64,000 nt of DNA from Acidihalobacter prosperus (GCF_000754095.2 NZ_JQSG02000001.1:62001-126000), one strand, 5' to 3'; positions 2,137-42,263 are shown, counted from the stretch's first letter. The notes: generated by a model from the sequence alone, not told the origin. A program made the numbers and translations.

Positions 2137-4062
2137 TTGAACGATCTCGTCAAGAATATCATCCTGTGGGCGGTGATCGCCGTCGTGCTGATGTCGGTGT
2201 TCAACAACTTCAGCCAGCACAGCGACTCATCGTCCTCGACCATGTCCTACTCGCAGTTCATCGCTGCGGTGAAGGGTGGGCGGGTCAAGAATGTCATGAT
2301 CGACGGGCGGACCGTCCATGGCGTGACCGATGGTGGGCAGAAATTCACCACGTATACGCCGACCGATCCCGGCATGATCGGCGATCTGCTCAACAACGGC
2401 GTGAACGTGTCGGCTGCCGAGCCCAAAAAGGAATCGCTACTGCTGTCGATCCTGATCAGCTGGTTCCCCATGCTATTGCTGATCGGTGTCTGGATATTCT
2501 TCCTCAGGCAGATGCAGGGCGGTGCCGGCGGGCGCGGCGCGATGTCGTTCGGCAAGAGCCGCGCCAGAATGATGAGCGAAGATCAGGTCAAGGTCACCTT
2601 CGCCGATGTGGCGGGCGTGGACGAAGCCAAGGAGGAGGTGTCCGAGCTCGTCGAATTCCTCCGCGATCCCGGCAAGTTCCAGAAACTGGGCGGCAAGATT
2701 CCGCGTGGTGTGCTGATGGTCGGTTCGCCCGGCACGGGTAAAACCCTGCTGGCCAAGGCGATCGCCGGCGAGGCCAAGGTGCCGTTCTTCAGCATCTCCG
2801 GTTCGGACTTCGTTGAGATGTTTGTCGGCGTCGGCGCTTCGCGTGTCCGCGACATGTTCGAGCAGGCGAAAAAGCACGCGCCTTGCATCATCTTTATCGA
2901 TGAGATTGACGCGGTTGGCCGCCATCGCGGCGCTGGTCTCGGCGGCGGGCACGACGAACGCGAACAGACCCTCAACCAGCTTCTGGTCGAGATGGACGGC
3001 TTCGAGGGTACGGAAGGCGTCATCGTGATCGCCGCGACCAACCGTCCGGACGTGCTTGACCCGGCGCTGCTGCGCCCCGGCCGATTCGATCGTCAGGTGG
3101 TGGTGCCGCTGCCCGACGTGCGGGGCCGCGAGCAGATTTTGAAGGTGCACATGCGCCGTGTACCGGTGGGCGATGACGTCAAGCCCGGCATCATCGCGCG
3201 CGGCACGCCCGGATTCTCCGGTGCCGATCTTGCCAATCTTGTCAACGAGGCCGCCCTGTTCGCTGCGCGGGCCAACAAGCGCAGCGTCGACATGCTTGAA
3301 TTCGAGCGCGCCAAGGACAAGATCATGATGGGTGCCGAGCGGCGCTCCATGGTGATGAGCGAGGACGAGAAGAAGTTGACCGCCTATCACGAGGCCGGGC
3401 ACGCCATCGTCGGTCTGCTCGTCCCTGATCACGACCCGGTCTACAAGGTCAGCATCATCCCGCGTGGCCGGGCGCTGGGTGTCACCATGTTCCTGCCGGA
3501 GGACGATCGGTACAGTTACAGCAAGCAGCGGTTGGAAAGTCAGATATCGAGCCTGTTCGGCGGGCGGATTGCCGAAGAGCTGATCTTCGGGCTGGAAAAG
3601 GTGACTACTGGCGCGTCCAACGACATCGAGCGGGCAACGGATATTGCTCGCAACATGGTGACCAAGTGGGGTCTTTCCGAGCGCTTAGGGCCCCTGGCCT
3701 ACAGTGAAGACGAAGGCGAGGTTTTCCTTGGGCGCAGCGTGACCCAGCACAAGCAGGTTTCCGACGAGACGGCGCACGTCATCGACGAGGAGATCCGCTC
3801 CGTCATCGAGCGCAACTACGGGCGTTCGCAGCAGATCCTGCGCGACAACATGGAAAAGCTGCATATCATGGCCCAGGCGCTGGTCAAGTATGAAACCATC
3901 GACGCGGATCAGATTGCGGACATCATGTCCGGCAAGGACCCGCGACCGCCTTCCGACTGGAGCGACGAAGGACCCAATTCCGGGCCTACCGCTTCATCGG
4001 GCGACAAGACCACGCAGGAGACCGGTGGCGGCAAGCTGGGCGATCCGGCCAGCCTGCATTGA
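2137..4062 (+). CDS. ftsH: ATP-dependent zinc metalloprotease FtsH
   Basis: This 641-residue inner-membrane AAA+ protease degrades unassembled membrane proteins and regulatory substrates. It has two transmembrane helices (about residues 7-25 and 101-123) flanking a periplasmic domain. The Walker A motif GSPGTGKT is near residue 196, the Walker B motif is [11 protein letters not shown], the second region of homology ends RPGRFDR, and the zinc site HEAGH is at residues 418-422. Translation starts at a TTG (2137) behind TTGAGGTGA; the protein from that codon aligns with the normal FtsH N-terminus. A short hairpin (about 2102-2116) precedes the ribosome binding site. folP follows directly. Confidence 0.97.
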
Positions 4063-4077
4063 TTGTGCGATAGCGAC

Positions 4078-4968
4078 ATGATCGCGCCGGTGGACGGGGC
4101 GGGTGAGGCGAAAGCCTCCCCGCCCCAATCGGTTGTGCTTGACTGCGGTGGCCGATTGCTGGATCTGTCCCGCCCACGCGTCATGGGAATCCTGAACGTG
4201 ACGCCGGACTCATTCTCTGACGGCGGCCGCCACGCGTCGGTGTCCGCAGCGGTCGAGCATGCCCTGGGTATGATCGAAGCGGGCGCGGATATCATCGATG
4301 TCGGTGGAGAATCCACGCGCCCGGGTGCCGCCGAGGTTGACGCATCCAGCGAAATCCAACGTATCGAAGCCGTGATCCGTTCACTGAGCCGCGAGATCAA
4401 TGTGCCGATCTCGATCGACACGCGCAAGCCGGCGGTTATGCGTGCCGCGGTGGAGGCGGGCGCCGGGCTGATCAACGACATTCGCGCCTTGCAGGAGCCG
4501 GGTGCGCTTTCGCTGGCGGTCGAACTGGGTGTGCCGGTCTGCCTGATGCATATGCGAGGTGAGCCGCGCAGCATGCAGGCGGCACCTCGGTATGGGGATG
4601 TCGTGTCCGAGGTCGAGGATTTTCTCCTGGCGCGGGTGCATGCCTGCGAGGCTGCGGGTATCGATCGGCGGCGTCTCCTGCTGGATCCGGGTATCGGCTT
4701 CGGTAAGAGCCTGCAGCACAATGTCGATTTGTTGCGCGCGACACCGCGCCTCGCGGGGCACGGGCTGCCGCTCCTGATCGGCGTGTCGAGAAAGTCGATG
4801 ATCGGTGCCCTGCTGGCGAACCGCCCCGTCGACGGCCGCGTTGACGGCAGCGTCGGTGCCGCAGTGGCGGTGGCGCTGGCTGGAGCGCGCGTGCTCAGGG
4901 TGCACGACGTGCGGCAGACGGTGGATGCGCTCGAGGTTGCCTGGGCAATCGGTCAAAAAGGGAGGTAA
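4078..4968 (+). CDS. folP: Dihydropteroate synthase
   Basis: This TIM-barrel enzyme of about 296 residues condenses p-aminobenzoate with hydroxymethyl-dihydropterin diphosphate in folate synthesis. Signature motifs are [25 protein letters not shown], the NDIRAL loop and [11 protein letters not shown]. The ATG at 4078 is preferred; an in-frame TTG at 4063, immediately after the ftsH stop, would add five residues. The ftsH-folP-glmM order is conserved in gammaproteobacteria and indicates one operon. Confidence 0.95.
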
Positions 4969-4973
4969 TAAGC

Positions 4974-6341
4974 ATGCCGAGGGCCTATTTCGGCACCGAC
5001 GGAATTCGCGGCCGGGTCGGGGATGCCCCGATGACGCCGGAATTCATTCTGCGTTTGGGGTGGGCGGCCGGGCGAGTGCTTGCCCATAGCGGGCGCCGCT
5101 TGATTCTCGTGGGCAAGGATACGCGCATATCCGGTTATATGTTTGAGTCCGTACTCGAATCCGGGCTTTCTGCGGCAGGTGTCAATACCCGCCTGTTGGG
5201 GCCGATGCCGACACCTGGCGTGGCCTATCTGACACGGACGTTCCGTGCAAGCGCAGGGATCGTGATCAGCGCTTCGCACAATCCCTACTACGACAATGGC
5301 ATCAAGTTTTTCACTGGCGAAGGGACGAAGCTCCCTGATGAAATGGAAGAGGCCATTGAAGCTGAGCTTGCCAAGGCCATGTCCGTGGTCGATTCGGCGG
5401 AGTTGGGCAAGGTGGAGCGAGTGGTCGATGCGGCCGGGCGCTACATTGAATTCTGCAAGAGCACGGTGCCGACCGGCACCGCGCTGCATGGCATGAAGAT
5501 CGTGGTTGACTGCGCGAACGGCGCCACTTATCACATCGCGCCTGCCGTGTTCGCCGAACTGGGCGCCAAGGTGGTGCCACTGTGCGATGAACCCGATGGC
5601 ATCAACATCAATGCCGGCTGCGGTTCTACGGCGCCGAGACGGCTGGCCGACGCCGTGATGGGACAGCAGGCGGATCTTGGTGTCGCCTTCGACGGCGATG
5701 GCGATCGCGTCATCATGGTGGACGGTCGCGGCGAAGTGATCGACGGCGACGAGCTTCTGTACATCATCGCGTCCACGCGCCTGCAGCGTGCCGAGCTACA
5801 AGGGGGCGTGGTCGGTACTTTGATGAGCAACCTGGGGCTGGAGCATGCGCTTGACAGGCTCGGCATCCCGTTCGAGCGCGCGGCCGTCGGAGACCGCTAT
5901 GTCATGGAGGCGCTCAGGCAGCGTGGTTGGCTGCTCGGCGGCGAGAATTCCGGGCATTTGATCTGTCTGGACCGCCAGACTACCGGCGACGGTATCGTGG
6001 CCGCGCTGCAGGTGCTGGCGGCGATGGTATCGACAGGCAAGGGGCTGCGCGAGCTTTCGTCGGGCCTGGAAAAGTACCCGCAGGTACTGGTCAACGTACC
6101 GATCGCGTCCGGTTTTTCGATTGCTGCCTCGGCCGTACTCGCCGAGGCGGTGCGCGATGCGGAGACGGCGCTGGGCATGCATGGGCGCGTGTTGCTGAGG
6201 GCTTCGGGTACGGAGCCGCTTCTGAGGGTGATGATCGAGGGTCGCGAGTCCCGCAAGGTGCGCGCGCTGGCGGATCAGTTGGCAGCCGTGGTCCGGGCCG
6301 AGCAAAAACGCTTTGCCGCCACAGTAACGCCGGCGAATTGA
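4974..6341 (+). CDS. glmM: Phosphoglucosamine mutase
   Basis: This 455-residue alpha-D-phosphohexomutase converts glucosamine-6-phosphate to glucosamine-1-phosphate for peptidoglycan and LPS precursors. The N-terminus [12 protein letters not shown] is diagnostic. The catalytic phosphoserine is Ser101 in [14 protein letters not shown], the metal loop is DGDGDR, and the C-terminal phosphate-binding loop is [19 protein letters not shown] lies just upstream of the ATG, five bases after folP ends. The length is typical. Confidence 0.97.
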
Positions 6342-6402
6342 TTTATGTTGATATGCCGGTTAAGCTTCGGCGCTTTCGTGTGAGGTCATCAGGAGATCGT
6401 GG

Positions 6403-7149
6403 ATGCGACAGCCAATGGTCGCCGGCAACTGGAAACTCAATGGTTCCAGGAAGATGGTGCATGAATTGCTGGGCGATCTGTTGTCGGGTCTGAGTGATGG
6501 CCATGCCGCAGAGGTCGCGATCTGTCCGCCGTACGTATATCTGCATGAAGCGATGACGCGTCTTGAAGGCAGTCGTGTCGCGCTCGGTGCGCAGGACGTG
6601 TCTGCGGAGGATGAAGGTGCCTACACTGGCGAGGTGTCGGCGCCCATGCTGAGTGATGTGGGCTGCCGTTATGTCATCGTCGGGCATTCGGAGCGCCGCA
6701 GCTTGTATCACGAGACGGATGAGATTGTGGCGCACAAGTTTCAGGCCGTGAACCGAGCGGGGCTTTGTCCGATTCTGTGCGTTGGCGAAAGCCTTGAAGA
6801 GCGCAATGCGGGTGTCACGGAGGCCGTGGTTGCGAGGCAGCTGGATGCTGTGGTCGAATTGCTCGGCGCAGAAACCGTCAGCCGAGCCGTGATTGCCTAC
6901 GAGCCTGTGTGGGCCATCGGAACGGGGTTGACCGCATCGCCGGAGCAGGCTCAGGCCGTTCATGCCTATATCCGCGGGAGACTGGCGGCAGCTGGCGCCA
7001 AGCCGGATCAGACACGCTTGCTTTATGGCGGGAGCGTCAAGCCGGACAATGCGGCGGAGTTGTTCGCGATGCCGGATATCGACGGTGGATTGATCGGTGG
7101 TGCGTCGTTGCAGGCCGAAGCCTTCCTTGCCATTTGCAATGCCGCTTGA
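6403..7149 (+). CDS. tpiA: Triosephosphate isomerase
   Basis: This 248-residue enzyme interconverts dihydroxyacetone phosphate and glyceraldehyde-3-phosphate. In an autotroph it serves both glycolysis and the Calvin cycle. Active-site motifs are GNWKLNGS (substrate-binding Asn and Lys), VGHSERR (catalytic His) and AYEPVWAIGTG (catalytic Glu), with the phosphate-binding GGSVKPDN loop. It starts about 60 bases after glmM and is followed 12 bases later by secG, a common arrangement. Confidence 0.97.
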   Translation: MRQPMVAGNWKLNGSRKMVHELLGDLLSGLSDGHAAEVAICPPYVYLHEAMTRLEGSRVALGAQDVSAEDEGAYTGEVSAPMLSDVGCRYVIVGHSERRSLYHETDEIVAHKFQAVNRAGLCPILCVGESLEERNAGVTEAVVARQLDAVVELLGAETVSRAVIAYEPVWAIGTGLTASPEQAQAVHAYIRGRLAAAGAKPDQTRLLYGGSVKPDNAAELFAMPDIDGGLIGGASLQAEAFLAICNAA

Positions 7150-29236: not shown

Positions 29237-29327
29237 GGAGAGGTGTCCGAGTGGTTGAAGGAGCACGCCTGGAAAGTGTGTATACGGTAACCCCGTATCG
29301 AGGGTTCGAATCCCTCCCTCTCCGCCA
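29237..29327 (+). tRNA. tRNA-Ser(GGA)
   Basis: This 91-base class II tRNA has the acceptor stem GGAGAGG/CCTCTCC, anticodon GGA (29271-29273) in loop CTGGAAA, a long variable arm, T-loop TTCGAAT and an encoded CCA. Its 3' end serves as the attachment site of the downstream island: the last 17-19 bases recur at 40869 and 41046. Confidence 0.96.
29311..29327 (+). repeat. attL core (tRNA-Ser 3' end)
   Basis: These 17 bases are the acceptor/T-arm 3' strand of tRNA-Ser plus CCA, and are identical to the copies at 40869-40885 and 41048-41064. Integration regenerates the intact tRNA at this end. Confidence 0.8.
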
Positions 29328-29420: not shown

Positions 29421-31022
29421 ATGCCAGACATGTCTCTACAGACCCATCTACTCAGGCGGGGCGGGATTTATTACTTCCGCGCCAAGATTCCTGTCGACCT
29501 GCAATTGTACTTGGGTAAACGCGAGGAGAAGTTCTCGCTCAAGACCAGAGATCCCCAGGAAGCGCGTAGTCTGGCCCGTCGTGCCTCGGCCGACTTCGAC
29601 CGACGCTGCGCGATGTTACGTGATGAGATCGCTGCCCGCCAGCGGTCCGATACTGGCCGGGTCGTGGATGAAGCGCTGATTCAAGAGATCTGCATGCACT
29701 GGCGGCATCAGGCGCTGGCCGGCGACGAACAGATCCGTATTCTCGGACAGGCGGCGGAAGAGCGCCGGACAGGTCACGCCGAACGTGAAGTCACACGCGC
29801 CGCGCTCAAGGAAACGCTCAGCCAGAGCGCGCTGGAGGCGGTTGAGCCGGCGCTGAAAGGTTTTTTGTATCTCAATGGGCTGCATATCGATCAAAAAGAC
29901 ACGGAAGGCTACCGCAGGCTGCTCTACCGCTTCCTGCAGACGGTGACCGAGGTCCACGACCAGCAGCTTGCGCGCGATGCCGGAGAAGTCGTCTGGACGC
30001 CTGAGGCGCCGCTGACGCCCCGTTCGCCGACCACCCCGGGCCTGAGCCTCGAGATCGCCTTCGAGGACTGGAAACGCTTCGACCCCAGCCGTCCGGCCCG
30101 TACCGTGGCCGACGTGCGCCGAGTGGTCGATGCATTCCAACAACTCACCGCCCATAAGCCCCTAGAGGCGATCGAGCGCCAGGAAGTGATCGCCTACCGT
30201 GACCAGTGTATCGCCCAGGGCCTCAGCGCCAAGACCGTCAGCAAGAAAATCGCCTTGCTATGCGCCCTGTTCAACGTCGCCATCGATAGCGGCAAGCTAC
30301 GCTATAACCCCGCCCAGCGAGTCTCGATCCCCAGGGGCGATCGCCGTCAGCGCAAGCCCTTCGACCTCGACGATCTCAAGCGCATCTTCGGGCCCACGCT
30401 CTACACCCGGGGCTTGGGACGCAAGACGGGTGCCGCCGGCATCTGGTTGCCGCTGCTGGCGCTCTACCAAGGCTGCCGGGTCGAGGAATTGGCGCAACTG
30501 CGTGTAGCCGACGTGCAGCACGCCGAAGGTATCGACTACCTCAATATCGACGACGACACCGATGCGACCCATACGCAAGGCGCCGAGGCGGTGGGGAAGC
30601 GACTCAAAAATACCGCCTCGCGCCGACGCCTGCCGCTGCATCCGGCCGTCATCGCCGCCGGTTTTCTGGATTATGTCGAGCAGGTGAGGGCGCAGCGCCA
30701 TCACCGACTGTTTCCGAGCCTGATCCCGGACAAGGACGGCAAATACTCGTCCACCTTCTCCAAAGCCTTCATGAGATACCTGCGCAGTGATCTTGAGATC
30801 ACCGACAGGTCTAAGGTATTTCACAGCTTCCGACATCGCTTTCGGAGTGCCTGCCGCGACGCCGGGCTGGACGAAGAGATCGCTGACGCCCTGATGGGGC
30901 ATAGCGATGGGCAGAAAACCGGACGCCATTATGGCGAGCGTTTCAGCCTGATCCGACTGCACGAAGCGATCAGCCGGATTCAATATCCGGGTTTGGAGAT
31001 CCCGCGTCACCCCAGCCACTGA
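29421..31022 (+). CDS. int: Site-specific tyrosine recombinase (integrase)
   Basis: This 533-residue protein starts with a short DUF6538-like arm-binding segment (LLRRGGIYYFRAKIP), continues through a helical region and an SAM-like core-binding domain (about 205-300), and ends with the catalytic domain. The catalytic set is visible: Arg353 (GCRVEEL), a Lys near 396, His468 and Arg471 (HSFRHRFR), His494 (GHSDGQ) and Tyr504 (GRHYGE). It lies beside its tRNA-Ser attachment site and presumably catalyses integration and excision of the island. Confidence 0.93.
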   Translation: MPDMSLQTHLLRRGGIYYFRAKIPVDLQLYLGKREEKFSLKTRDPQEARSLARRASADFDRRCAMLRDEIAARQRSDTGRVVDEALIQEICMHWRHQALAGDEQIRILGQAAEERRTGHAEREVTRAALKETLSQSALEAVEPALKGFLYLNGLHIDQKDTEGYRRLLYRFLQTVTEVHDQQLARDAGEVVWTPEAPLTPRSPTTPGLSLEIAFEDWKRFDPSRPARTVADVRRVVDAFQQLTAHKPLEAIERQEVIAYRDQCIAQGLSAKTVSKKIALLCALFNVAIDSGKLRYNPAQRVSIPRGDRRQRKPFDLDDLKRIFGPTLYTRGLGRKTGAAGIWLPLLALYQGCRVEELAQLRVADVQHAEGIDYLNIDDDTDATHTQGAEAVGKRLKNTASRRRLPLHPAVIAAGFLDYVEQVRAQRHHRLFPSLIPDKDGKYSSTFSKAFMRYLRSDLEITDRSKVFHSFRHRFRSACRDAGLDEEIADALMGHSDGQKTGRHYGERFSLIRLHEAISRIQYPGLEIPRHPSH

Positions 31023-31173
31023 GGCAAGACTCCGGGGATAGTGACGTCATCGATCCAGGTGTAGGCATACGCAAAACTGCCCCCAAGTCGTGCAAAGCCG
31101 CACCGCGACTTTGCTCAAGGTGCAGGGGCGGATGCCGGTTTGCTGCAGCCATCGGCAGCGGCCGGATATAGAT

Positions 31174-32232
31174 GGCCGCGCCCCCCAATGAGGGGGCGGG
31201 GCCGAATGCGCCGGATTCCTTTATCCGACGTTTTGTCCACAAAAGTCACACTCGCGAATCCTAATGATCCACGCGCCTCGTGCCGTCGCCATGGCTGCCA
31301 CGCCAAGGTTTGATGACGGTCGATGGAAAGCGGTCCAGGTACCACCCTGTCCCGTTAGCCACCTCGTGCCCTGCCAGGGGCTTTAGTCTCTTATCACTGC
31401 TTCGGGCTTTCGCCTGCAGAACCCTTCGTATCGGTTCAGCTCTGCAGGTCCGGCCGGCGCACATGCGCCGCACCGCTACTTGCCCGATCTCCCACACCTG
31501 TACAGCGCCTTGCGACGCCAAACCCAGCGGTTGCCTACCGCTCATTGGCCCAGGTGCTTCCCACGTTAGTTAGACGCTACTACGCAATATATCGCCGCCG
31601 CTGTCATGATCGAGTCATCGCATACGCTCACCCGGTTGCCCGGTGTCAGTCCCGCGAGATTCCATAGCCGGTGACTTACCAGACTCATCAATCCCAGCTA
31701 CCGATTAACCCGCTACGCTGCGGGCCAACGGCTGTCTATATGCTCTGCACAGCATCCCTCATCGAGGACGCCGTTAGACGCTTGAGCTATGCATCGGCCC
31801 CGGGCTTCCCCAGGTGCCCCGTACCCTGAACGGTCCATGCCGTCGGCCTCGCGGCCATCGTACGATCTACAGATTACCCTGTAGCTAAGCCTACGTCTGC
31901 AGCACCCGTCACGCGCTTGCGCTCGTCCCGGGGATATGGATTGAGTACCAGATTTTCGCGTCAAACCGGAACGCCGCGGCATTTCCTCCGCGGGCCCGTG
32001 TCCGTGTCGCCCAATCTACCTGATTGCTCCGGATAGTCGGATTGAGTCGAGTCGGGAGTTTCACCCGCCGCGCTCATCGCAGCCGCGCCAGCTCCATTAC
32101 GAGCACGCGGCTACAGCAGTTCCGGTAGGGTGGCGCCCTACCTTCCAAGAGATTACGAGGGGGTTGGCAGCCCCCTCACTGAACTGGCAGGGAGCGGGCC
32201 AACAGGCCCACGTTGATGACGCTTTCGCGTCT
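31174..32232 (-). ncRNA. Candidate large structured noncoding RNA (unclassified)
   Basis: About 1.1 kb without a credible protein gene is packed with strong hairpins: 31174-31203, 31397-31419, 31505-31518, 31527-31541, 31629-31645, 31845-31856, 31867-31884, 31974-31993, 32124-32142, 32157-32178, 32197-32210 and 32219-32232. Read on the minus strand, several are closed by GNRA tetraloops: GAAA (32224-32227 and 31408-31411), GCAA (31510-31513 and 31636-31639) and GCGA (31849-31852). On the plus strand these loops are TTTC, TTGC and TCGC, so the RNA is most likely transcribed leftward from near 32290. I cannot assign it to a known class. Ends and promoter are not defined. Confidence 0.55.
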
Positions 32233-32471
32233 GTGTCTCCTTCATATTTTCTCACTTATCCTAGGTGGATCAATACATTAGGGCGATGGTCATCTCGCCC
32301 AGTTTAGGAATCTCTCTTTATGGAGCGGCCACTTTCGTGTCCGGATCATTGCGCGGCTGCGGCTTCGCCGCACACGCGAAAAATCAGCGGCCTCGACCAA
32401 GCGCCTCCCCCTAGCGCGCAGACGCGGCCGCATGGATCCAGAGAGACCGTCGGCTATTGCCATAGGGGTGC

Positions 32472-32544
32472 CCTCGCGCGCGCGAGGCATCGCCTGCGCA
32501 GCCTATGGAATCAGGCGCGAATCCGTGCCCTCGCGCGCGCGAGG
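32472..32544. repeat. Two copies of a 16-bp perfect palindrome
   Basis: CCTCGCGCGCGCGAGG occurs at 32472-32487 and 32529-32544, 57 bases apart, within a 20-base direct repeat beginning GTGC. They lie upstream of the ATG at 32584 and between the divergent RNA candidate and that gene. They could be operators for a dimeric regulator; alternatively they form cruciforms. Confidence 0.6.
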
Positions 32545-32583
32545 GAGAAGCGCTCTAATTTTGTCGTCCCCCTACTACTAGGT

Positions 32584-33288
32584 ATGGACGCACACTCATA
32601 CCTCATCAGGGATACGCTGCACGCTTCCCGTGCCATCATCAACGCAGTCTCACGCGGACATGATCGGCATACCTCAGGCCTCGTGCCACTCGAACGCGCG
32701 GAAGCACTGGTCACCAAGTTCGCCGAGCGTTACGGGGTGCTCGAGTCGGCATCCGAGGCGCGGCAGCGACGCCGACACAAGCTTGCCCGTGCCCGATTGC
32801 ATATGGGTTTTGTGGGGCGCGTCGAGGATGGCCATCTCTGGTGGCTGTTGTTGGTCAGTCGGGAGGGTGAAGGTCCGGTGACGACGCTGGAGAAGCTGTA
32901 CGCCGCGCAGGACAAACACCATCGCATTCACATCATGGGGCTGGAGTTGGTCCGCTACCCACGACCTGGTAGCGTAGAGCGCTGGACTTGGCGACTGCCG
33001 ACCGACGCGTATCGCTTGCTACTCAAGCACGCCGTGGCCTTGGCGCGGCATCAAGATCCGCGTCAGGCGCAGGCGCTGATCAATCACGAGATGCGCCGGC
33101 CGGGCTATAGAGGGATCCGCACGCAGCGTAAAGAATTGTTCCGGGCGATGGCGCGGGCTCGCGCGCCACTGGTCAAGCGCGGCGCCGCGCCGCTCGTGTT
33201 CCCCGAATCACAGTTCTGGCTGCGCATGTTGTCGGCCGATATGGAGAGCATACCGCTGGGTGTGCTGGTGAGGCGCTTGCGCAGATGA
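32584..33288 (+). CDS. Hypothetical island protein
   Basis: This basic protein of 234 residues is one I do not recognise. It has an Arg/His-rich helical N-terminal half (RARLHMGFVGRVEDGHLWW, then a WLLLVSREGEGP strand) and ends in VRRLRR. The central part looks like a small alpha/beta domain. No signal peptide or membrane helix is evident. The open frame extends upstream to 32320, but the palindromic repeats and low-complexity translation there favour the ATG at 32584; the ribosome binding site is weak. It is divergent from the structured RNA candidate and precedes the hxs cluster. Confidence 0.6.
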   Translation: MDAHSYLIRDTLHASRAIINAVSRGHDRHTSGLVPLERAEALVTKFAERYGVLESASEARQRRRHKLARARLHMGFVGRVEDGHLWWLLLVSREGEGPVTTLEKLYAAQDKHHRIHIMGLELVRYPRPGSVERWTWRLPTDAYRLLLKHAVALARHQDPRQAQALINHEMRRPGYRGIRTQRKELFRAMARARAPLVKRGAAPLVFPESQFWLRMLSADMESIPLGVLVRRLRR

Positions 33289-33482
33289 GCCCGGGCCTTG
33301 CCGTGAACCAGTACAACTACTCTTGAAACATCACAAGCCGGAGAGTAGGGTAGCAAACTTGGCATCGAGGCCGATGATGCACTTGAAATATCGGAATAAA
33401 AAAGGTTTGACTTGAGAGTCTTAACAAAAACTAACCATATGGTAGGGTAGAGCATTAAATGCTGCTGGGAGTGTGAATCATA
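33289..33482 (+). promoter_or_regulatory. Upstream region of the hxs operon
   Basis: This 194-base gap marks the change to A/T-richer DNA. TTGACT at 33407-33412 could be a -35 element, with a poor -10 (ACTAAC, 33430-33435) 17 bases on. GGGAG before the hxsA ATG is a ribosome binding site. No terminator for the preceding gene is obvious. Confidence 0.3.
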
Positions 33483-33782
33483 ATGAATAAGAAATTCATG
33501 ACTAAATTTGCTGTCCTCTCTGCGACATTTGCAGCCGCATCTCAGGCCCAAGCGATGCTTACTCCGAACAATCCTTCTGATACATGGCCGACAACTGTCA
33601 CGGCTACGTTAATCAACATTCCTTCCCTAAAGGCACATCGGCCATCCGCTGCGCTAAGCGACAGGGATTTTGTCCTGAAACGGATGGGGCAGGGTGGCCT
33701 AATGGTTGCTGACCACTGGTCGCATGCTTCTCACAGCTCGCACGTATCGCACTACTCAAGCAGTTCAAACAACGGCTACTAG
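33483..33782 (+). CDS. hxsA: His-Xaa-Ser repeat precursor protein HxsA
   Basis: This 99-residue protein ends in five consecutive His-x-Ser triplets (HWSHASHSSHVSHYS, residues 78-92) followed by SSSSNNGY. The N-terminus looks like a Sec signal peptide: Lys-rich start, hydrophobic core and an AQA site at residue 24. Together with the next three genes this matches the His-Xaa-Ser system, in which paired radical SAM enzymes are predicted to modify the repeat peptide. The actual modification is unknown. The product is presumably exported after or before modification. Confidence 0.88.
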   Translation: MNKKFMTKFAVLSATFAAASQAQAMLTPNNPSDTWPTTVTATLINIPSLKAHRPSAALSDRDFVLKRMGQGGLMVADHWSHASHSSHVSHYSSSSNNGY

Positions 33783-33844
33783 AAAGATACCAATCCAGTA
33801 AGACCGATGCTCTCTGGTTATTTTCGTCTTAGGGGGCTGATCAA

Positions 33845-34129
33845 ATGCAGAACCTTGCGCTAGATTGCACATGCTATTCCATTGACGCCGTTCAGAAAGC
33901 CGCGTACCGATTCATAGATCGGCTAACTATTCAGATATCCACTTCTGACAGTGAAATTATATGCTCTATCGAGCCTATAAAAAAAAATAGTGACCTAGAT
34001 GTGCTAATCGCTGATTTCAAGCGGGAACTGCTAGACCAGGAATTGCGTGAAAAGATAAAGGTAGAGACAGCACCTGTCAGGGATCTCATTTTGTCGCTCG
34101 CTTTCTCCAAGAGTGGCTTGCAGGAATGA
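33845..34129 (+). CDS. hxsD: His-Xaa-Ser system protein HxsD
   Basis: This 94-residue protein contains the family landmarks AYRFIDRLTIQIS and the C-terminal FKRELLDQELREKIKVETAPVRDLILSLAFS region (read in two parts). HxsD occurs only with HxsB and HxsC and is a likely peptide-binding or partner protein, by analogy with other radical SAM peptide systems. GGGGG lies before the ATG, and its stop overlaps the hxsB start (ATGA). Confidence 0.88.
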   Translation: MQNLALDCTCYSIDAVQKAAYRFIDRLTIQISTSDSEIICSIEPIKKNSDLDVLIADFKRELLDQELREKIKVETAPVRDLILSLAFSKSGLQE

Positions 34130-35586
34130 GCAAGTTCGTCGGTATCGATGAGTTCCGCGCAGAAAACGGGAACTACAGCCTGCTCCCATTCAGATTCGAG
34201 TCAATTGATTTTGAAAATATAGTGGTAACAAATTCCGTGGGCGAATTCGTCATCATGGGCCGTGACAAGCTCGACCCTTTGGTGGAAAAGTCCTTACCTA
34301 GTAATGATCCTGACTATGTGGCGTTACGTCGCATTCAGGTGTTGAAAGAGCCGTCTGATTACTGGGCTTTGTCGTTACTAGCCCTGAAAACTCGTACACG
34401 CCTGTTGCCGCTACGGAATTTCACAAACTTGCACATCTTTGTCGTCAGCCTTCGCTGCGATCATAGTTGTCAATATTGCCAGGTGTCGCGTCAGTCGGAT
34501 AACAAGCTGGCATATGACATGTCTGAAGGAACAGCCAACAAGGCTTTGGACATGGTTTTTCGGTCGCCCAACGAAGCTATCAAGATTGAGTTCCAGGGTG
34601 GAGAGCCCCTTCTGAACTTCGAACTGATCCGGTATGTTGTGGAAAAAGCGGAAGAGCGTAACCAAATAGAGCAACGTGATCTCCAGTTTGTTATTGCAAC
34701 CTCACTTTCTTTAGCCACTAACGATATTCTCGAATATTGCCGTGATCACCATATATATCTGTCCTCGTCACTAGATGGCCCCGCAGACCTCCACAACAAG
34801 AATCGACCTCGTCCTGGTAGAGATAGCCACGAGCGCTTTTCTGACGGTTTGCGACGTGCGCGCGACATTGTCGGTTATGACGCAGTATCAGCGTTGATGA
34901 CGACCTCGCCTGCCAGCATGACCCGTGTAACAGACATCATCGATGAATACCTTAGATTCGGCTTCGATAGTATTTTTCTCCGCCACCTTTCGCCCTATGG
35001 CTTTGCGGTCAAGACAAAAAGCTACCAAGCATATAATGCTGAACGCTGGCTGCAGTTCTACAAAGAAGGTGTGGAGTACATCCTTGACCTAAACCGGAAA
35101 GGTATTCGGTTCGTCGAGCATTATTCGACCATCATTTTGACCAAGATGTTTGCCGTGAATGACCCCGGGTTTGTTGATCTTAAGAACCCCGCAGGAGTGG
35201 GCATTGCTGCGGTCGTGTTCAACTATGACGGCGACGTCTATGCCTCTGACGAAAGCCGAATGCTTCATGAGATGGGTGATTCATCGTTCAGGATGGGCAA
35301 TCTCCATGAAAACACATACAAGGAAATCTTTACATCTGATGCCCTGCTAAGTGCTCTGGAAGATTCTTTCACCCTTTCCGCTCCGATGTGCAGCGACTGT
35401 GCTTTTGAGTCTTGGTGCGGCGCTGATCCAGTGTTTCACCATGCCACCTTTGGTGACATGCTTGGCCGAAAGCCAGAATCCGAGTTCTGCAAGCGCACTA
35501 TGGGAATAATTCGATATCTTCTCGACAAGATCCGTAACGACACAGAGGCGCTTGAAATTTTCAAACGCTGGGTTAATAAATGTTAA
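34126..35586 (+). CDS. hxsB: His-Xaa-Ser system radical SAM maturase HxsB
   Basis: This 486-residue radical SAM enzyme has the cluster motif CDHSCQYC (Cys111, 115, 118; CX3CX2C), the GGEP-type segment EFQGGEPLLNFELI and a Cys-rich C-terminal region (MCSDCAFESWCG plus a later EFC) like SPASM auxiliary-cluster domains. It would cleave S-adenosylmethionine to make a radical that modifies HxsA. It overlaps hxsD and hxsC by a few bases, so the three are co-translated. Confidence 0.9.
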   Translation: MSKFVGIDEFRAENGNYSLLPFRFESIDFENIVVTNSVGEFVIMGRDKLDPLVEKSLPSNDPDYVALRRIQVLKEPSDYWALSLLALKTRTRLLPLRNFTNLHIFVVSLRCDHSCQYCQVSRQSDNKLAYDMSEGTANKALDMVFRSPNEAIKIEFQGGEPLLNFELIRYVVEKAEERNQIEQRDLQFVIATSLSLATNDILEYCRDHHIYLSSSLDGPADLHNKNRPRPGRDSHERFSDGLRRARDIVGYDAVSALMTTSPASMTRVTDIIDEYLRFGFDSIFLRHLSPYGFAVKTKSYQAYNAERWLQFYKEGVEYILDLNRKGIRFVEHYSTIILTKMFAVNDPGFVDLKNPAGVGIAAVVFNYDGDVYASDESRMLHEMGDSSFRMGNLHENTYKEIFTSDALLSALEDSFTLSAPMCSDCAFESWCGADPVFHHATFGDMLGRKPESEFCKRTMGIIRYLLDKIRNDTEALEIFKRWVNKC

Positions 35587-36737
35587 CGCTCTCAGGGAAA
35601 GTATTAAGCGTATCGGAAGCGCAGCACGACAATAGTCAGCGGCGTAGAGTTTATAGCCTAACCACAAATGATAATTTGCCGTTACCTCTAAGAGCTCAAA
35701 AGGCGCTTATTTACCACCATGATGGCTCGCCACCTCCCGGATATGAGCATTACATATTCATTGGCAAGACACCTTCTTCATGGGCAGAAGCAAGTAACTA
35801 CACTGTGGTCCCGGAAAGTTTTGATTATTTGGGTGAAGGTGACGTCGTTGCGCTATCCGAGACTGGGATCCGCTCACTTTACCGAGCTAACTCCCGTCAT
35901 AACAGCCTTCTCCTGACCGAACGATGTAATCACTATTGTTTGATGTGTTCCCAGCCACCTAAGCGCAGTGACGATAGCTGGCTCTTGGATGAGGCGTTCG
36001 ATGCGATTCGACTCATGCCGAGATCCACACAAACCCTAGGCATCACAGGTGGAGAGCCAACACTTTATCGAGATGGGTTCCTGCAACTGATCAGGCACAT
36101 ACAGTCGTATCTTCCCAATGCTGCGTTGCACATCCTGTCAAATGGCCGCGCATTCTCTGACGTGGAATTCACAGGGCGATATGCAACTATTAAGCACCAA
36201 AACTTGATGCTCGGAATACCCTTGTATTCATCTGATCCCACACGCCATGACTATGTGGTGCAATCGAGAGGGGCTTTTGATGAGACGATCAGAGGCATAC
36301 TTAACCTGAAACAACACCAACAAAAGGTTGAGTTACGTGTTGTCCTACACAAGCTAACATCCCAGGGGTTGCCTGATCTTGCCGAGTTTATTGCCCGTAA
36401 TTTGCTTTTTGTGGATCAGGTCGCCCTAATGGGCTTGGAAATGACGGGCTTCACCCTGGCCAATCTCAATGAGCTCTGGATAGACCCGGTAGACTACCAG
36501 AGTGAACTTCGTGCGGCGGTACGAACATTGGATGCATACGGCATCCCTGTTTCGATTTACAATCACCAGCTTTGTTTAATACCTCAGGATTTAGAGAGAT
36601 TCAGTGTCAAGTCCATCTCTGATTGGAAGAATGAATTTGTCTCAGAGTGTGAGTCGTGTACCAGAATGCATGAATGTGGTGGTTTTTTTTCATCTGGAAT
36701 TGTAAATGGGTATAGCCCTTCCATTAAGAAATTCTAG
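35580..36737 (+). CDS. hxsC: His-Xaa-Ser system radical SAM maturase HxsC
   Basis: This 385-residue second radical SAM enzyme has the motif CNHYCLMC (Cys116, 120, 123), a GITGGEPTLYRDG segment and a terminal Cys cluster (CESCTRMHECGG). The region before the motif is a long N-terminal extension (about 110 residues). Pairing of HxsB and HxsC suggests two successive or cooperative modifications of HxsA. It ends the operon; no terminator is obvious before the IS256 remnant. Confidence 0.9.
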   Translation: MLTLSGKVLSVSEAQHDNSQRRRVYSLTTNDNLPLPLRAQKALIYHHDGSPPPGYEHYIFIGKTPSSWAEASNYTVVPESFDYLGEGDVVALSETGIRSLYRANSRHNSLLLTERCNHYCLMCSQPPKRSDDSWLLDEAFDAIRLMPRSTQTLGITGGEPTLYRDGFLQLIRHIQSYLPNAALHILSNGRAFSDVEFTGRYATIKHQNLMLGIPLYSSDPTRHDYVVQSRGAFDETIRGILNLKQHQQKVELRVVLHKLTSQGLPDLAEFIARNLLFVDQVALMGLEMTGFTLANLNELWIDPVDYQSELRAAVRTLDAYGIPVSIYNHQLCLIPQDLERFSVKSISDWKNEFVSECESCTRMHECGGFFSSGIVNGYSPSIKKF

Positions 36738-36830
36738 AGTCTTTTGGATATATTGTAATATTGGTTTATTTATGTTTCGCTTCACCTCTTCGATAACAGC
36801 AGGCGCAGACCCTTGGTTGCAGATTATTGC

Positions 36831-36893
36831 TCGATCGAGGAGTCGTTGATCGAGATGTATCTGGCCGGGGTGTCGGTGCGCCGGGTCGAGCAC
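36831..36893 (+). pseudogene. IS256-family transposase remnant
   Basis: One frame reads SIEESLIEMYLAGVSVRRVE, which matches the N-terminal region of IS256/mutator transposases. Flanking sequence does not continue the match and a stop follows soon after. Only a scrap is left between hxsC and the convergent gene at 36966. Confidence 0.6.
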
Positions 36894-36965
36894 AAAGGCT
36901 GGAACGCTGATACTCCACCAAAAACCAGTATGAGAACTGGATGTTGGTGACAATCAAGTAGGGTT

Positions 36966-38129
36966 TTACAATTCGAGATAATCCCACCAGCGGACTGGGG
37001 GCTCCTCAGCCGCTACTGGGCGGACATATCGAGCCGCCTCGTAGCACTTGTTATCATTACTATACCAGCCACCAGACTTTTCGAATGCTTTCAATATCCG
37101 CAACCTGGTTTCGACTTCCATTCTCTCTGAAAGCATGGGCTGCATACGTAACGAATAATCTGGCTGGAAGAAGAAATAGGTTCCATCCATGCTATAGGTA
37201 TTCCTTGGATGTTTTTCTGGGTAGCAAGCGCCGAATGTACTTATAAACATACTTTCTCTAACAAACCGGAATTTCCATTCGGGCGCTTCGATTTGCCTGG
37301 ACAGGCACCCAGCTTCGTCCGGGTCAATCACGCTGAGACCCTGCAATATACGAGCCGTGCTTCTAGCCAAAATATTGACCGTCGCACTAAACTCCGCAGG
37401 TGCTTTTAGAAGAAAGCCATCCATTCCTTCTTTTCGACCGATTTTTAAAAATTTGTCAAGAGCCATTGCGATCCTGAAGATATTATCTTCAAATGTCCCA
37501 TTCATCTGCCACTTGGGGGCTCCCCAATATTTCCCTTTAGTAGCAAAAATACAACGTGTTTTCGGCGCCAAAACCCTTCGCATCTCATCGTAGGCCACAC
37601 AACCAGCAGGATCATAGCCGCCGGGGTCGTTCTGTCGAAGCCAACCGCTCTTTAATAAAAACATCCCAGCTTTGGCTGTGTATTCAGGATCGCAATGGCT
37701 TATCAACAGTGAGAATATCTGATAAGTAATAATTTCTACTGGGCTCTGATTATCGTCAAAATGTACTGGTTCGAATAATTCGATATTAGCATATTTGTCA
37801 ATCATAAATCGGAGCGCACGCAGTAAGCGTATTAACTCTGGAATACAATCCTCACTATTAGTGGGCTGATCCGCCTTATAAAATATAGACAGACGTTTTA
37901 GAGCTTCGATTCGCGGTTTAGAGCAATATCTAGCAGCAGATATTACAGTAATGTCCAGAGCCAAGTGGATTATACTATCTAGCTTCTCATGAGCAATAGA
38001 CGGCTCCAGCATCCTCAGAATCTCGCTTACTATCCGAGCAGATGCTGCATCACTCGGCAGGCGATGATGATCAATCAGAAGATCTAGCGCACAAAACTGA
38101 GATTTCCGGAACGAAGTAGCAAGACCCAT
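36966..38129 (-). CDS. Hypothetical protein, possibly YqcI/YcgG-like
   Basis: I do not firmly recognise this 387-residue protein. The N-terminal half is helical. The C-terminal half has CIFATKGKYWGAPKW and then STFGACYPEKHPRNTYSMDG with FFFQPDYSLR, a spacing that recalls the YqcI/YcgG family (heme-dependent oxygenases such as GntA), but the resemblance is weak. The start has GAGGA nine bases upstream. It is the last gene of a leftward cluster with a cupin and a sulfotransferase-like gene, and its A/T content is higher than the host's. Confidence 0.55.
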   Translation of the reverse strand: MGLATSFRKSQFCALDLLIDHHRLPSDAASARIVSEILRMLEPSIAHEKLDSIIHLALDITVISAARYCSKPRIEALKRLSIFYKADQPTNSEDCIPELIRLLRALRFMIDKYANIELFEPVHFDDNQSPVEIITYQIFSLLISHCDPEYTAKAGMFLLKSGWLRQNDPGGYDPAGCVAYDEMRRVLAPKTRCIFATKGKYWGAPKWQMNGTFEDNIFRIAMALDKFLKIGRKEGMDGFLLKAPAEFSATVNILARSTARILQGLSVIDPDEAGCLSRQIEAPEWKFRFVRESMFISTFGACYPEKHPRNTYSMDGTYFFFQPDYSLRMQPMLSERMEVETRLRILKAFEKSGGWYSNDNKCYEAARYVRPVAAEEPPVRWWDYLEL

Positions 38130-38239
38130 AACTTATCGATCCTCTATTTTCGCAATACAGCAAAGACAGGTTTTCCAATCTACTAAACTAGAAATAGTAA
38201 ACTCATCAATTCTCACAAATGTTTTGTTTGCCATGCTAA

Positions 38240-38560
38240 TCACATTTTTGTGGGTTGTATATTATCAATAACCAGGAGTTCAACATGATGATCAATGATG
38301 AGTCGATGTTTTTCGCCGGCTGAGACCACAGCCAAATCCCCCTTAGAAAGTAAGGATCTCTTGCCGTCAACTTCCAAGGTCATATAGCCATCAAGGACAA
38401 AAAAAGTTTCTTCGGCGCCAGGATGCATATGCAAATTCGTACTCATTTCTTTCATATGCCTATGGCGCACATAGACACCGCCTATTTCGCCAAGCAACAA
38501 AGAACTCCAATGATTATCTCGTTCCCAGACCGGCGACGCACTTTTAACAATGATTGGCAT
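38240..38560 (-). CDS. Cupin domain-containing protein
   Basis: This 106-residue single-domain cupin has the metal-binding motif HMHPGAEETFFVLDG (His44, His46 and a Glu) and a second motif around GEKHRLIIDHHVE. Such proteins are often small isomerases, dioxygenases or sensors; the substrate cannot be told. GAGGA precedes the ATG. It lies between the sulfotransferase-like gene and the unknown gene and points the same way. Confidence 0.8.
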   Translation of the reverse strand: MPIIVKSASPVWERDNHWSSLLLGEIGGVYVRHRHMKEMSTNLHMHPGAEETFFVLDGYMTLEVDGKRSLLSKGDLAVVSAGEKHRLIIDHHVELLVIDNIQPTKM

Positions 38561-38790
38561 CTTAGTAATCCTCTATTTCCCATTCCCATATTTCGAAATC
38601 GATGTTAACCTGTATATTTGAGATTTCCTAGATACAATTTACTACCCTGCTAAGTTTGTTGGCTTAACTCGACGGTTATAAACAACCCACTTTTGGCAGC
38701 TATCCTTTGCCGAAAGCCAATATAATGGCTGTTGCCCATCCACTCTATATCACTCTGCCCGACCTCAGATGCTCATGATTTGAATTGCCT
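38561..38790 (-). other. A/T-rich spacer between sulfotransferase-like and cupin genes
   Basis: No gene is seen in these 230 bases. The sequence is A/T-rich and may carry a promoter for the cupin gene: on the minus strand TTGTAT and TATACA occur 15 bases apart, which is short of the ideal spacing. Confidence 0.3.
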
Positions 38791-39516
38791 TTACTGACGA
38801 TCAGTTTTATGCTCGTATGCGACGCCTTTTTTTAACTCTCTATAAAATGCAAGACAATTGTCATAGATTATTCGTATGCGAGGTTGCTCTAAAATTTCAA
38901 ATGCAGTTTCTCCTTGCGCGACAAAACCGTTGCTTTTATTTGCAAGCGCGTGCCAATCTTCTCGATCTTGCCATTCAGGGCGCGACCCATAATTCCACCG
39001 TAGAGATTCTAGTTTTGGATCTAATCCAAGGCTTTCAAAATAATGCCGAACGACTTCTTGCGGATATTCACGGAGTGATTGACCATCAATAACCAAGGGG
39101 GCAGTTCCAGTACCATGCATGAGAGTATTATAAAATCGGAATGATTCCTCATACCCTGTTTCTTCATATGTGAAGTTTTCCCGCATTTTATAAAGAGACG
39201 GCAAAACAAATTTTGGATGACGGATCAGGAAACTGTGTATAACGTTATCAGGAAATGAAAAATTATGGAATGGCTTCATGTGATAAGTCATCTCTTTGAC
39301 AAACACAGGGCTCGAACAGCTTGCCTCTTTCAAATGTTCAACCACCTTCTCAATATCAGTCATTGATTCTGCGACCCTTCCAGAAGCAAACAATTTATAA
39401 GGCGTGATAAAAGGTTCTCCATAAACTTTAAAGTCTCCACGGTTATCCACCATTTTCTCGAATGCTGTGGAGACAGAGCGTGGAACACACCATAAGAACA
39501 CGACAGGGTAACTCAC
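38791..39516 (-). CDS. Sulfotransferase-like protein
   Basis: This 241-residue protein has a P-loop-like 5'-phosphosulfate motif, CVPRSVSTAFEK (residues 10-21), and a 3'-phosphate-binding type segment, FLIRHPKFVLPSLYKM. These suggest PAPS-dependent sulfotransfer; the acceptor is unknown. The start is a GTG at 39516 with GGAG upstream. The inverted repeat of the IS630 element ends only about 11 bases before the start codon, so the native upstream region is lost or displaced. Confidence 0.72.
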   Translation of the reverse strand: MSYPVVFLWCVPRSVSTAFEKMVDNRGDFKVYGEPFITPYKLFASGRVAESMTDIEKVVEHLKEASCSSPVFVKEMTYHMKPFHNFSFPDNVIHSFLIRHPKFVLPSLYKMRENFTYEETGYEESFRFYNTLMHGTGTAPLVIDGQSLREYPQEVVRHYFESLGLDPKLESLRWNYGSRPEWQDREDWHALANKSNGFVAQGETAFEILEQPRIRIIYDNCLAFYRELKKGVAYEHKTDRQ

Positions 39517-39527
39517 GATACACTCCG

Positions 39528-40628
39528 AATTACTCAGCAGTCAGTAATATAGGCAACACTTGGATGCCTGGAGAATGAGCGGATCAGATTCGGCTGTGCG
39601 GCCATGTCGGCGAGTTGAAACTGGATGCGATCTTCCAGACGTTCTCCGGCACGCAACGGCCGGCGGGCATTGCCCGTGCGCTTGGCGTGGCTCCAGACCA
39701 GCTCGTCGGGATTGAGTTCGGGGGCATAGCCGGGCAGGAAGTGCAACGTCAACTTGCCCTTTGACTTGGCGACATACGTTTTGACGGCGCGGGTCTTGTG
39801 CGCAGGCAGATTATCGAGGATCAGATGCAGCGGCTTGCGTCGGCCGCGCATCAGGCGCTGTAGGAAGGTCACGAACAGGTCGCCGTTCAAGCCGCCCTTG
39901 TAAGTCGTGAACCAGAACGCCCCCTTGGCACTGACCGCCGAGGCGGCACTGATCCCTTGACGCTGTCCGGGCACCGAGACGACCGGCGTGTGTCCTTTGG
40001 CGCCCCATGTCTTGCCATGCACCGAGTCGGCACGAAAACCTGACTCGTCCCAAAAATAGATATCGGCCTTGTCCCGCTTGGCTTGGCGGGCAATCGCCGG
40101 ATAGGTTTCCCGTTGCCAGCGCTCGATCGCGTCAGGATCCCGCTGATACGCACGCTGGAGTGGCTTTTGCGCGGTCAAGCCGACCCGCGCCAGCAACGCG
40201 CCCACTGAGGCCAAGCTCAGCGAAACGCCCAATCGCTGTGCGATCAGTTCGCGCACGATCTGGCGTGTCCATAAACCGAAGTCGAAGCCATACTGCCGCG
40301 GGTTCTTGCCGTTGACCCACCGGAACACTTGCCGTCCTTGGGCATCGGTCAACTTCCGGCGCCGCCCGGGGGCCCGCCGCAACTGCAGGGCCCGCTTGCC
40401 TTGGCCGCGCCCGCGCACCTTCAGCCGTACCTTGTACGCCCAAGTCCGGTGCATCCCGAACGACGCCGAGACCGCTGCCGGCGATTCGCCCTCCGCCATC
40501 CGCTCCAGCGCCATGAAGCGCATCGCTTCCAGCGTCTCGCGGGTCAATGTCCGGCCATCGTTCTTCATACCCAATTATGACCGCAGTCGACGCCATTTGT
40601 TCCCTAATATACTGACTTATGAGTAATT
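39528..40628 (-). mobile_element. IS630-family insertion sequence
   Basis: The element is bounded by imperfect 30-base inverted repeats (39528-39557 and 40599-40628; 24 of 30 match, sharing AATTACTCA and AGTCAGTA). It contains one transposase gene. The outer limits follow from the repeats; the expected TA target duplication is not clear, so the true ends may lie a few bases inward. Confidence 0.75.
39534..40568 (-). CDS. IS630 family transposase
   Basis: This transposase of about 344 residues has an N-terminal helix-turn-helix (SPAAVSASFGMHRTWAYKVR) and a DDE domain. The catalytic residues appear in YFWDESGFRAD, LILDNLPAHKT and PELNPDELVW. The ATG at 40568 is chosen; an in-frame TTG lies six bases upstream. 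The frame is intact, so the element may be active. Confidence 0.9.
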   Translation of the reverse strand: MKNDGRTLTRETLEAMRFMALERMAEGESPAAVSASFGMHRTWAYKVRLKVRGRGQGKRALQLRRAPGRRRKLTDAQGRQVFRWVNGKNPRQYGFDFGLWTRQIVRELIAQRLGVSLSLASVGALLARVGLTAQKPLQRAYQRDPDAIERWQRETYPAIARQAKRDKADIYFWDESGFRADSVHGKTWGAKGHTPVVSVPGQRQGISAASAVSAKGAFWFTTYKGGLNGDLFVTFLQRLMRGRRKPLHLILDNLPAHKTRAVKTYVAKSKGKLTLHFLPGYAPELNPDELVWSHAKRTGNARRPLRAGERLEDRIQFQLADMAAQPNLIRSFSRHPSVAYITDC

Positions 40629-40868: not shown

Positions 40869-40911
40869 TCCCTCCCTCTCCGCCACTTAATCGCAGCCGC
40901 GATATTCCGTT
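40869..40911 (+). repeat. attR-like copy 1
   Basis: These 43 bases begin with the tRNA-Ser 3' end (17 bases) and continue CTTAATCGCAGCCGCGATAT. The whole block recurs exactly at 41047-41089, 178 bases downstream; similarity continues with mismatches for about 15 more bases. Confidence 0.8.
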
Positions 40912-41045
40912 CCACAGCGATTGCCATCTGATCCTTCCGAATGGAGGGTGAGAAGCCTCATGGGTTCGACCGATTCGTCCGGAACGGATCGGCACGCCGC
41001 GCGAGCGGCGGTCCCGCAGGGACGAGGCGCAGGACGCGCCGAGCA

Positions 41046-41089
41046 ATCCCTCCCTCTCCGCCACTTAATCGCAGCCGCGATATTCCGTT
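41046..41089 (+). repeat. attR-like copy 2
   Basis: This is the second copy of the tRNA-Ser 3' end, with 19 bases (from AATCCC) identical to the tRNA gene, followed by the same flank as copy 1. It is probably the original chromosomal junction; the segment between the two copies could be a leftover of an earlier or tandem integration. Confidence 0.75.
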
Positions 41090-41222: not shown

Positions 41223-42263
41223 ATGCAGACACTCACGCTTCAGACTCCCGACGACCTTCATGTTCACTTTCGCGACGGCGCGATGCTCGCGGAGACGGTG
41301 CGGGCGACGGCGCGGGTGTTCCGGCGCGCCATCGCGATGCCGAATCTGGTGCCGCCGGTGAAGACGGTCGAGCAGGCGCTTGCCTACAAACAGCGCCTGC
41401 TCGACGCCCGGCCGGAAGGCTCGGCGTTCGAGCCGCTGATGACCCTGTATCTGACCGATACTCTCGACGCCGACGAGATCGCGCGCGCCGCGGCCGCAGG
41501 CGTCCGCGCGGTCAAGCTGTATCCGGCCGGGGCGACCACCAATTCCGACGCCGGGGTCGCCAACCTGGACAGCCTGTACCCCATTCTCGAAATTCTGGAG
41601 GCGCACGGCATCATGCTGCTGGTGCACGGCGAGGTGACCGACCGCGGCGTGGATATCTTCGACCGCGAGCGCGAGTTCATCGACCGCCACCTGCGCGCCA
41701 TCGCCGAGCGGTTCGCCGAGCTGAAGATCGTGCTGGAGCACATCAGCACCAAGGACGCGGCCGAGTTCGTGGCCGGGGCCGGCGCCAACGTGGCGGCGAC
41801 GATCACCCCGCAGCATCTGCTGCTCAACCGCAACGACCTGCTGGCCGGCGGCATCCGTCCGCACAATTACTGCCTGCCGGTGCTCAAGCGCCGCAGTCAC
41901 CAGGAAGCGCTGCGCGCGGCCGCGGTGTCCGGTTCCAGCAAGTTCTTCCTGGGCACGGATTCGGCGCCGCACGAGCTTTCGACCAAGGAGTCGGCCTGCG
42001 GCTGCGCCGGCTGCTACAGCGCGCCGACCGCCCTGGAGCTGTATGCGCAGGTCTTCGACGAGTTGGGCGCGCTTGACCGTCTGGAAGCCTTCGCCAGCCA
42101 TTACGGCGCCGATTTCTACGGCCTGCCGCGCAATGCGGGCACGGTGACCCTGGTCAAGGAGCCGTGGACGATCCCCGAGCGCGTCGAAATCCCCGGCGTT
42201 GGTTCGATCGTTCCGCTGATGGCCGGCACGCGGCTCGACTGGAAGCTGCAGTCGCCCGCCTGA
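41223..42263 (+). CDS. pyrC: Dihydroorotase (type II)
   Basis: This 346-residue amidohydrolase interconverts carbamoyl aspartate and dihydroorotate in pyrimidine synthesis. Metal ligands are visible: [10 protein letters not shown] near the N-terminus, the carboxylated-Lys region [30 protein letters not shown] and the GTDSAPH aspartate. It is a complete gene just outside the island. Confidence 0.95.

Follow-up and report, generated by a model that had tools for sequence, protein, structure and literature searches.

A His-Xaa-Ser peptide-modification gene set in a tRNA-Ser island of Acidihalobacter prosperus and its proposed product

The hxs genes and their families

The window analyzed here, a stretch of 64,000 nucleotides from Acidihalobacter prosperus, carries between 33483 and 36737 on the plus strand four adjacent genes in the order hxsA2-hxsD-hxsB-hxsC, as read from its open reading frames. 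The four-gene cluster proposed in the initial annotation was thereby recovered at the same coordinates:

33483-33782 (+), hxsA2, precursor of 99 aa (NF038296, 55.7 bits, cut-off 48)
33845-34129 (+), hxsD, small partner protein of 94 aa (TIGR03976, 76 bits, cut-off 50; AF2 model with pLDDT 93)
34126-35586 (+), hxsB, radical SAM/SPASM maturase of 486 aa (TIGR03978, 612 bits, cut-off 370)
35580-36737 (+), hxsC, radical SAM maturase of 385 aa (TIGR03977, 405.9 bits, cut-off 267.9)

An ATGA overlap joins hxsD to hxsB and a 7 bp overlap joins hxsB to hxsC, which suggests a single transcript. No clear terminator or promoter was found within the operon, where counts of such signals were the same as in shuffled sequences.

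HxsD, HxsB and HxsC each exceed the cut-off of their family model. A comparison with TIGR03976 to TIGR03979 had been proposed as a check of the assignment, and it came out as expected for TIGR03976, TIGR03977 and TIGR03978; the precursor, in contrast, failed TIGR03979, the model of the long form of HxsA (12.3 vs. 121.65 bits), and is an HxsA2 of 99 aa without any Pfam domain, scoring above the cut-off of this sister model. With NF038296 taken for the precursor, all four proteins pass curated models, in line with the earlier description of the set as known by annotation. The gene order A2-D-B-C is shared with annotated sets (NCBI) from Paraburkholderia and Nostoc plasmid copies, and the set in the window differs from known Hxs systems in nothing diagnostic. 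Judged by its sequence, the cluster is an ordinary and complete member of the catalogued, annotated and biochemically uncharacterised His-Xaa-Ser system, the origin of which lies with Haft and Basu (2011, J Bacteriol 193:2745; cited in the sequence-network study PMC9062424). Within the open-access literature, mentions of HxsB in its proper meaning were confined to that study and a genome list (PMC8446631), and no experiments on HxsB were found there; subscription papers lay mostly outside this search and recent work may be missed. Within the same scope, the earlier view that neither the chemistry nor the biological role of the system has been established agrees with the literature. To the existing annotation the present analysis adds the phase of the array, a link to Sec and peptidoglycan, the loss of AuxI, a predicted RRE-like domain in HxsB and the history of the island.

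The tRNA-Ser island and the distribution of hxs genes

The cluster had been described as cargo of a tRNA-Ser island lying in A/T-richer DNA, and both parts of this description were substantiated. The island is delimited by the following features:

29237-29327 (+), tRNA-Ser(GGA), the integration site, with its 3' end (29309-29327) forming the repeated att core (ARAGORN, repeats)
29421-31022 (+), tyrosine-recombinase integrase with DUF6538 and Phage_integrase domains (Pfam), with a 98.6% identical copy in a relative
40869-40885 (+), direct repeat of the tRNA-Ser 3' end, 17 bp, the inner att-like copy (repeat search)
41045-41063 (+), direct repeat of the tRNA-Ser 3' end, 19 bp, the outer att-like copy, where the island probably ends on the right

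The integrase thus lies at the 3' end of the tRNA gene, direct repeats of this end follow, and an empty site is present in a genome of the same genus (G002), where the tRNA end and sequence matching position 41223 lie within ~380 bases. The GC content is 47.7% in the hxs genes, 61% in the left part of the island and 65-69% in the flanks. At another tRNA-Ser gene, G002 contains a sister island (98.5-98.7% identical) with an integrase 98.6% identical to that of the window and with the block 31113-33367 shared at 98.5%, but its cargo is different and does not include hxs; HxsB is absent from both same-genus genomes searched. A near-identical sister island lacking hxs means that the genes were either gained by, or lost from, an otherwise shared island, and gain is favored because of their low GC content relative to both the left part of the island and the flanks. 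The hxs genes are therefore probably a later, secondary insert into the island.

Several other elements of the island are recorded here in their own right. At 40869-40885 and again ~176 bp away at 41045-41063, the repeated tRNA-Ser 3' end is followed by CTTAATCGCAGCCGCGATATTCCGTT, which looks like the result of two successive integrations or of a small nested element. A 322-aa open reading frame at 32320-33288 (+) has no Pfam or NCBIfam match and a near-identical stretch in the sister island; the latter (L085, G002:C1:1717300-1737000) carries GGDEF/EAL-type proteins and, as judged by eye, a small rusticyanin-like protein in place of hxs. Resemblance to the Mutator transposase family at 36826-36940 is weak (E 0.087). 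On the minus strand, in DNA of 42-44% GC (36966-39516), follow a 387-aa protein with weak similarity to YqcI/YcgG (36966-38129; E 3.8e-4, under the cut-off), a small cupin (38240-38560; Cupin_2) and a sulfotransferase (38791-39516; Sulfotransfer_5). This trio 3' of hxsC was considered as a part of the system and rejected, as homologs occur near hxsB in none of 74 loci. On its right side the A/T-rich cargo closes with an IS630-family transposase (39534-40574, minus strand; NF033545, 214.8 bits).

The loci of relatives were obtained by scanning one genome per species, which yielded 74 with hxsB; hxsC was found in 69, and several of the remainder are truncated contigs. Within the same class, HxsB exceeded the cut-off in 4 of 369 genomes, that of the window included, while the four further genomes of the same family yielded no such HxsB; the gene is thus patchy. 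The HxsB of the window falls, in a quick tree, within a set of 17 rows (SH-aLRT 100), which besides itself comprises 15 Betaproteobacteria and one Alphaproteobacterium. Matches were further found in 328 plasmid records, 304 of them from Klebsiella and most typed as conjugative, the sampled Klebsiella copies being ~32% identical, and in two records of phage collections, one of a Leptospira phage, the other of a gut scaffold that is unverified. Together with the patchiness, these records indicate that Hxs is often mobile cargo. No nucleotide match was found in E. coli genomes. The genes are thus widespread on chromosomes of many species, on plasmids and in phage records, and no published product was found in the open-access literature. 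The gut scaffold (L089), labeled as bacteriophage, unannotated and possibly host DNA, carries a complete divergent set composed of an HxsD-like protein (871-1245), an HxsC-like protein (2509-3633), an HxsB with full SPASM Cys (3637-5037) and an HxS-rich protein (5919-6425).

The HxS array and its maturation enzymes

HxsA2 is built from a Sec-like signal peptide, a spacer ending in DRDFVLKR..., an (HxS)5 tail and a terminal SSSNNGY. The number of five triplets reported earlier is exact:

33714-33758 (+), five contiguous HxS triplets HWS-HAS-HSS-HVS-HYS, the predicted modified core (shuffle tests, codon reading)

The triplets use mixed codons (CAC and CAT for His; TCG, TCT and TCA for Ser), so that a slipped DNA repeat is unlikely. 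Among 200,000 shuffles of the whole peptide, 50 contained at least five HxS and none had five in a row; nor did five in a row arise in 200,000 shuffles confined to the His/Ser-rich tail.

The phase of the repeat was read from 70 distinct precursors of relatives, chosen for at least three contiguous HxS. The last His has a Ser at +2 in all 73 periodic arrays, while only four of the 73 have a Ser before the first His, which identifies His(i)-x-Ser(i+2) as the unit; on this sequence pattern S-H-x is disfavored. Ser occupies +2 of 438 of the 439 His, a share owed in part to the choice of precursors with at least three HxS, which does not affect the phase test, and the single exception (precursor L060) is a phase slip of the search pattern. 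In periodic arrays the +2 residue is strictly Ser, with Thr and Ala absent, and residue x is unconstrained, with 14 residue kinds across the set; HWS in the window contributes its sole Trp at x (1 of 444). A unit of this kind would favor a side-chain cross-link between i and i+2.

Links of this spacing are formed by radical SAM/SPASM enzymes: HaaB and ScaB join C2 of His to Cbeta of Ala at i/i+2, and MscB joins C4 of Phe to Cbeta of Ser (PMC11002830). Triceptides (HaaB, ScaB, MscB, YhhB; PMC11002830) share with Hxs this type of enzyme, an aromatic residue at i and a partner at i+2. Hxs differs from them in its strict Ser, its second radical SAM enzyme and its tandem array, and HxsB scores far below the cut-offs of the cyclophane-forming family models (YhhB 67.1 vs. 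445, AmcB 50.1 vs. 425 and GrrM 44.6 vs. 310 bits).

Both radical SAM enzymes had been credited with CX3CX2C motifs and C-terminal Cys clusters. These are present (C111/C115/C118 and C422/C425/C431/C455 in HxsB; C116/C120/C123 and C332/C357/C360/C366 in HxsC) and invariant in alignments of 70 HxsB and 67 HxsC sequences. HxsC additionally carries a CNHYCLMCSQPPK motif in the alignment; it has a family model of its own and no SPASM match. In anSME, AuxII is held by CX2CX5C and one later Cys. The AuxII Cys of HxsB are kept in 75 of 75 homologs, whereas at the AuxI positions 356, 374 and 434 a Cys occurs in no more than 4, 1 and 1 of the 75, and at none of them in the HxsB of the window; the distant HxsB of the gut scaffold retains all three. 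HxsB therefore falls short of a full SPASM domain, which has two auxiliary ligand sets with seven to eight Cys, and with AuxII kept and AuxI lost it should hold two clusters in total, a single auxiliary one besides the SAM cluster.

The AF2 model of HxsB (pLDDT 86.4) places strands (23-45) and helices (46-101), three of each, ahead of the barrel in the order found in RRE domains, and this N-terminal region (23-101) is predicted to be RRE-like. By VIA-align the nearest structure is anSME (Z 34.1, residues 100-486, 362 residues), with further matches to CteB (residues 20-473, Z 32.0, rmsd 4.3, 405 aligned, with the whole model as query) and ChlB (Z 31.9). The ranthipeptide maturases CteB and PapB and anSME share with HxsB a radical SAM fold with a C-terminal cluster domain, and CteB has an N-terminal RRE. 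These enzymes form thioethers or formylglycine on Cys or Ser and have full SPASM ligand sets, in contrast to HxsB with its AuxII ligands only. HxsD is predicted to fold as beta-alpha-beta-beta-alpha, with a last helix of 40 residues; its top Foldseek and VIA rows were ferredoxin-like, MscS C-terminal and KEOPS Pcc1 folds, all with Z < 8 and E > 0.04. A PqqD-like RRE was considered for HxsD and is provisionally disfavored, since neither list of weak matches contained an RRE or PqqD-like row; HxsD may serve as a leader-binding or scaffold protein. A role in anti-phage defense was dismissed, as the PADLOC matches were limited to weak, generic pVip (viperin) ones in the radical SAM core.

Two of these features count against a cross-link: the closest fold match of HxsB, anSME, oxidizes Ser or Cys to formylglycine without cross-linking, and the AuxI Cys kept by two-cluster SPASM enzymes are missing. 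Moreover, known three-residue cyclophane enzymes tolerate several third residues, and the strict Ser at +2 therefore suggests that its hydroxyl may matter, which speaks against a simple cyclophane. HxsB and HxsC might instead oxidize each HxS Ser at C-beta to formylglycine, to which the neighboring imidazole N would perhaps add, with His serving in recognition or aldehyde trapping; the sequence-profile match of HxsB to anSME and the absence of Thr or Ala at +2 would fit such a reaction. We nevertheless consider it unlikely, since anSME has two auxiliary clusters where HxsB keeps ligands for one, since a strict His every third residue would be left unexplained, and since the nearest family models are cross-linking maturases (PapB 113.6 bits vs. 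65.9 bits for the anaerobic sulfatase maturase). Somewhat less improbable, though still not our expectation, would be another change of His or Ser, such as epimerization, dehydration, a His-O-Ser ether, a bond between His N and C-beta or links between triplets, with HxsB and HxsC performing separate steps. The co-occurrence of two non-redundant radical SAM enzymes across the loci and the separate, non-SPASM family of HxsC are consistent with this, but none of these changes accounts for the phase of the array better than an i/i+2 link.

Predicted export and proposed function

A Sec-like signal peptide was recognized in 68 of the 70 precursors, HxsA2 of the window among them, using a simple home-made rule (basic start, hydrophobic 12-mer, A-x-A-like site). 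FL or FM occurs near the start of 51 of 59 A2-type precursors, in 37 with a Pro three residues past F, and this sequence conservation of FL..P appears to exceed the requirements of a signal peptide. Long HxsA of alphaproteobacteria, Klebsiella and Aeromonas have a PG_binding_1 domain downstream of the array, and that of a myxobacterium a PEGA domain. Only hxsA, hxsB, hxsC and hxsD recur widely in the neighborhoods of the 74 loci. The combination of a small precursor with radical SAM maturases recalls sactipeptide and ranthipeptide clusters, and the mature product could in principle be released as a bacteriocin or signaling peptide. We regard this as very improbable, as genes for a dedicated exporter, a protease or immunity do not recur across the 74 loci, as the precursor starts with a Sec-like signal peptide and as the array is fused to peptidoglycan-binding or PEGA domains in relatives. 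Taken together, these observations speak for a protein of the envelope and against a secreted antibiotic.

We tentatively propose, at somewhat less than an even chance, that hxsADBC makes an exported, His-Ser stapled envelope peptide that might act as a metal buffer. The proposal draws on the observed genes, families, array phase, conservation, neighborhoods and island and on a predicted fold and predicted export. HxsA2 would be translated with its Sec-type signal peptide and bound in the cytoplasm by the RRE-like N-terminal domain of HxsB, assisted by HxsD, with docking likely to take place at the FL..P motif inside the signal peptide. HxsB and HxsC would then act on the HxS array by hydrogen abstraction and join the ring of His(i) to Ser(i+2), the bond most likely running from a His ring carbon to the Ser C-beta, as in a three-residue cyclophane, with 2 H lost per triplet. 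The signal peptide would carry the modified peptide out via Sec, after which it would be free in the periplasm in HxsA2 systems and anchored by the peptidoglycan-binding domain in long HxsA systems. A row of constrained imidazoles would probably bind metal, to which neighboring genes lend no support: no consistent metal-resistance genes were found beside hxs. A metal-resistance neighborhood was rejected accordingly, with only a chrA near hxs in Novosphingobium and another ~12 kb off in Klebsiella. If the proposal is true, a radical-SAM RiPP that leaves the cytoplasm via Sec and is attached to peptidoglycan would widen the presumed roles of such peptides. The conservation analysis sharpens three questions: at which atoms His(i) and Ser(i+2) would react, whether the leader is the signal peptide, and whether a single auxiliary cluster is enough for HxsB.

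Bufferins offer a precedent: these RiPPs carry Sec signal peptides and sequester periplasmic copper, and preliminary results reported by their authors place the signal peptide within the recognition sequence (PMC12452194). In a more specific version of our proposal, which strikes us as quite unlikely, Hxs would be their radical-SAM counterpart, a Sec-exported envelope RiPP with the signal peptide as leader and a ladder of His-Ser staples buffering metal, its genes being disseminated by plasmids, phages and islands. Bufferins and oxazolins resemble Hxs in that a Sec-type signal peptide replaces the usual leader and in the proposed periplasmic product; unlike Hxs, they depend on an MNIO enzyme and are modified on Cys, a residue that 63 of the 70 Hxs precursors do not contain.
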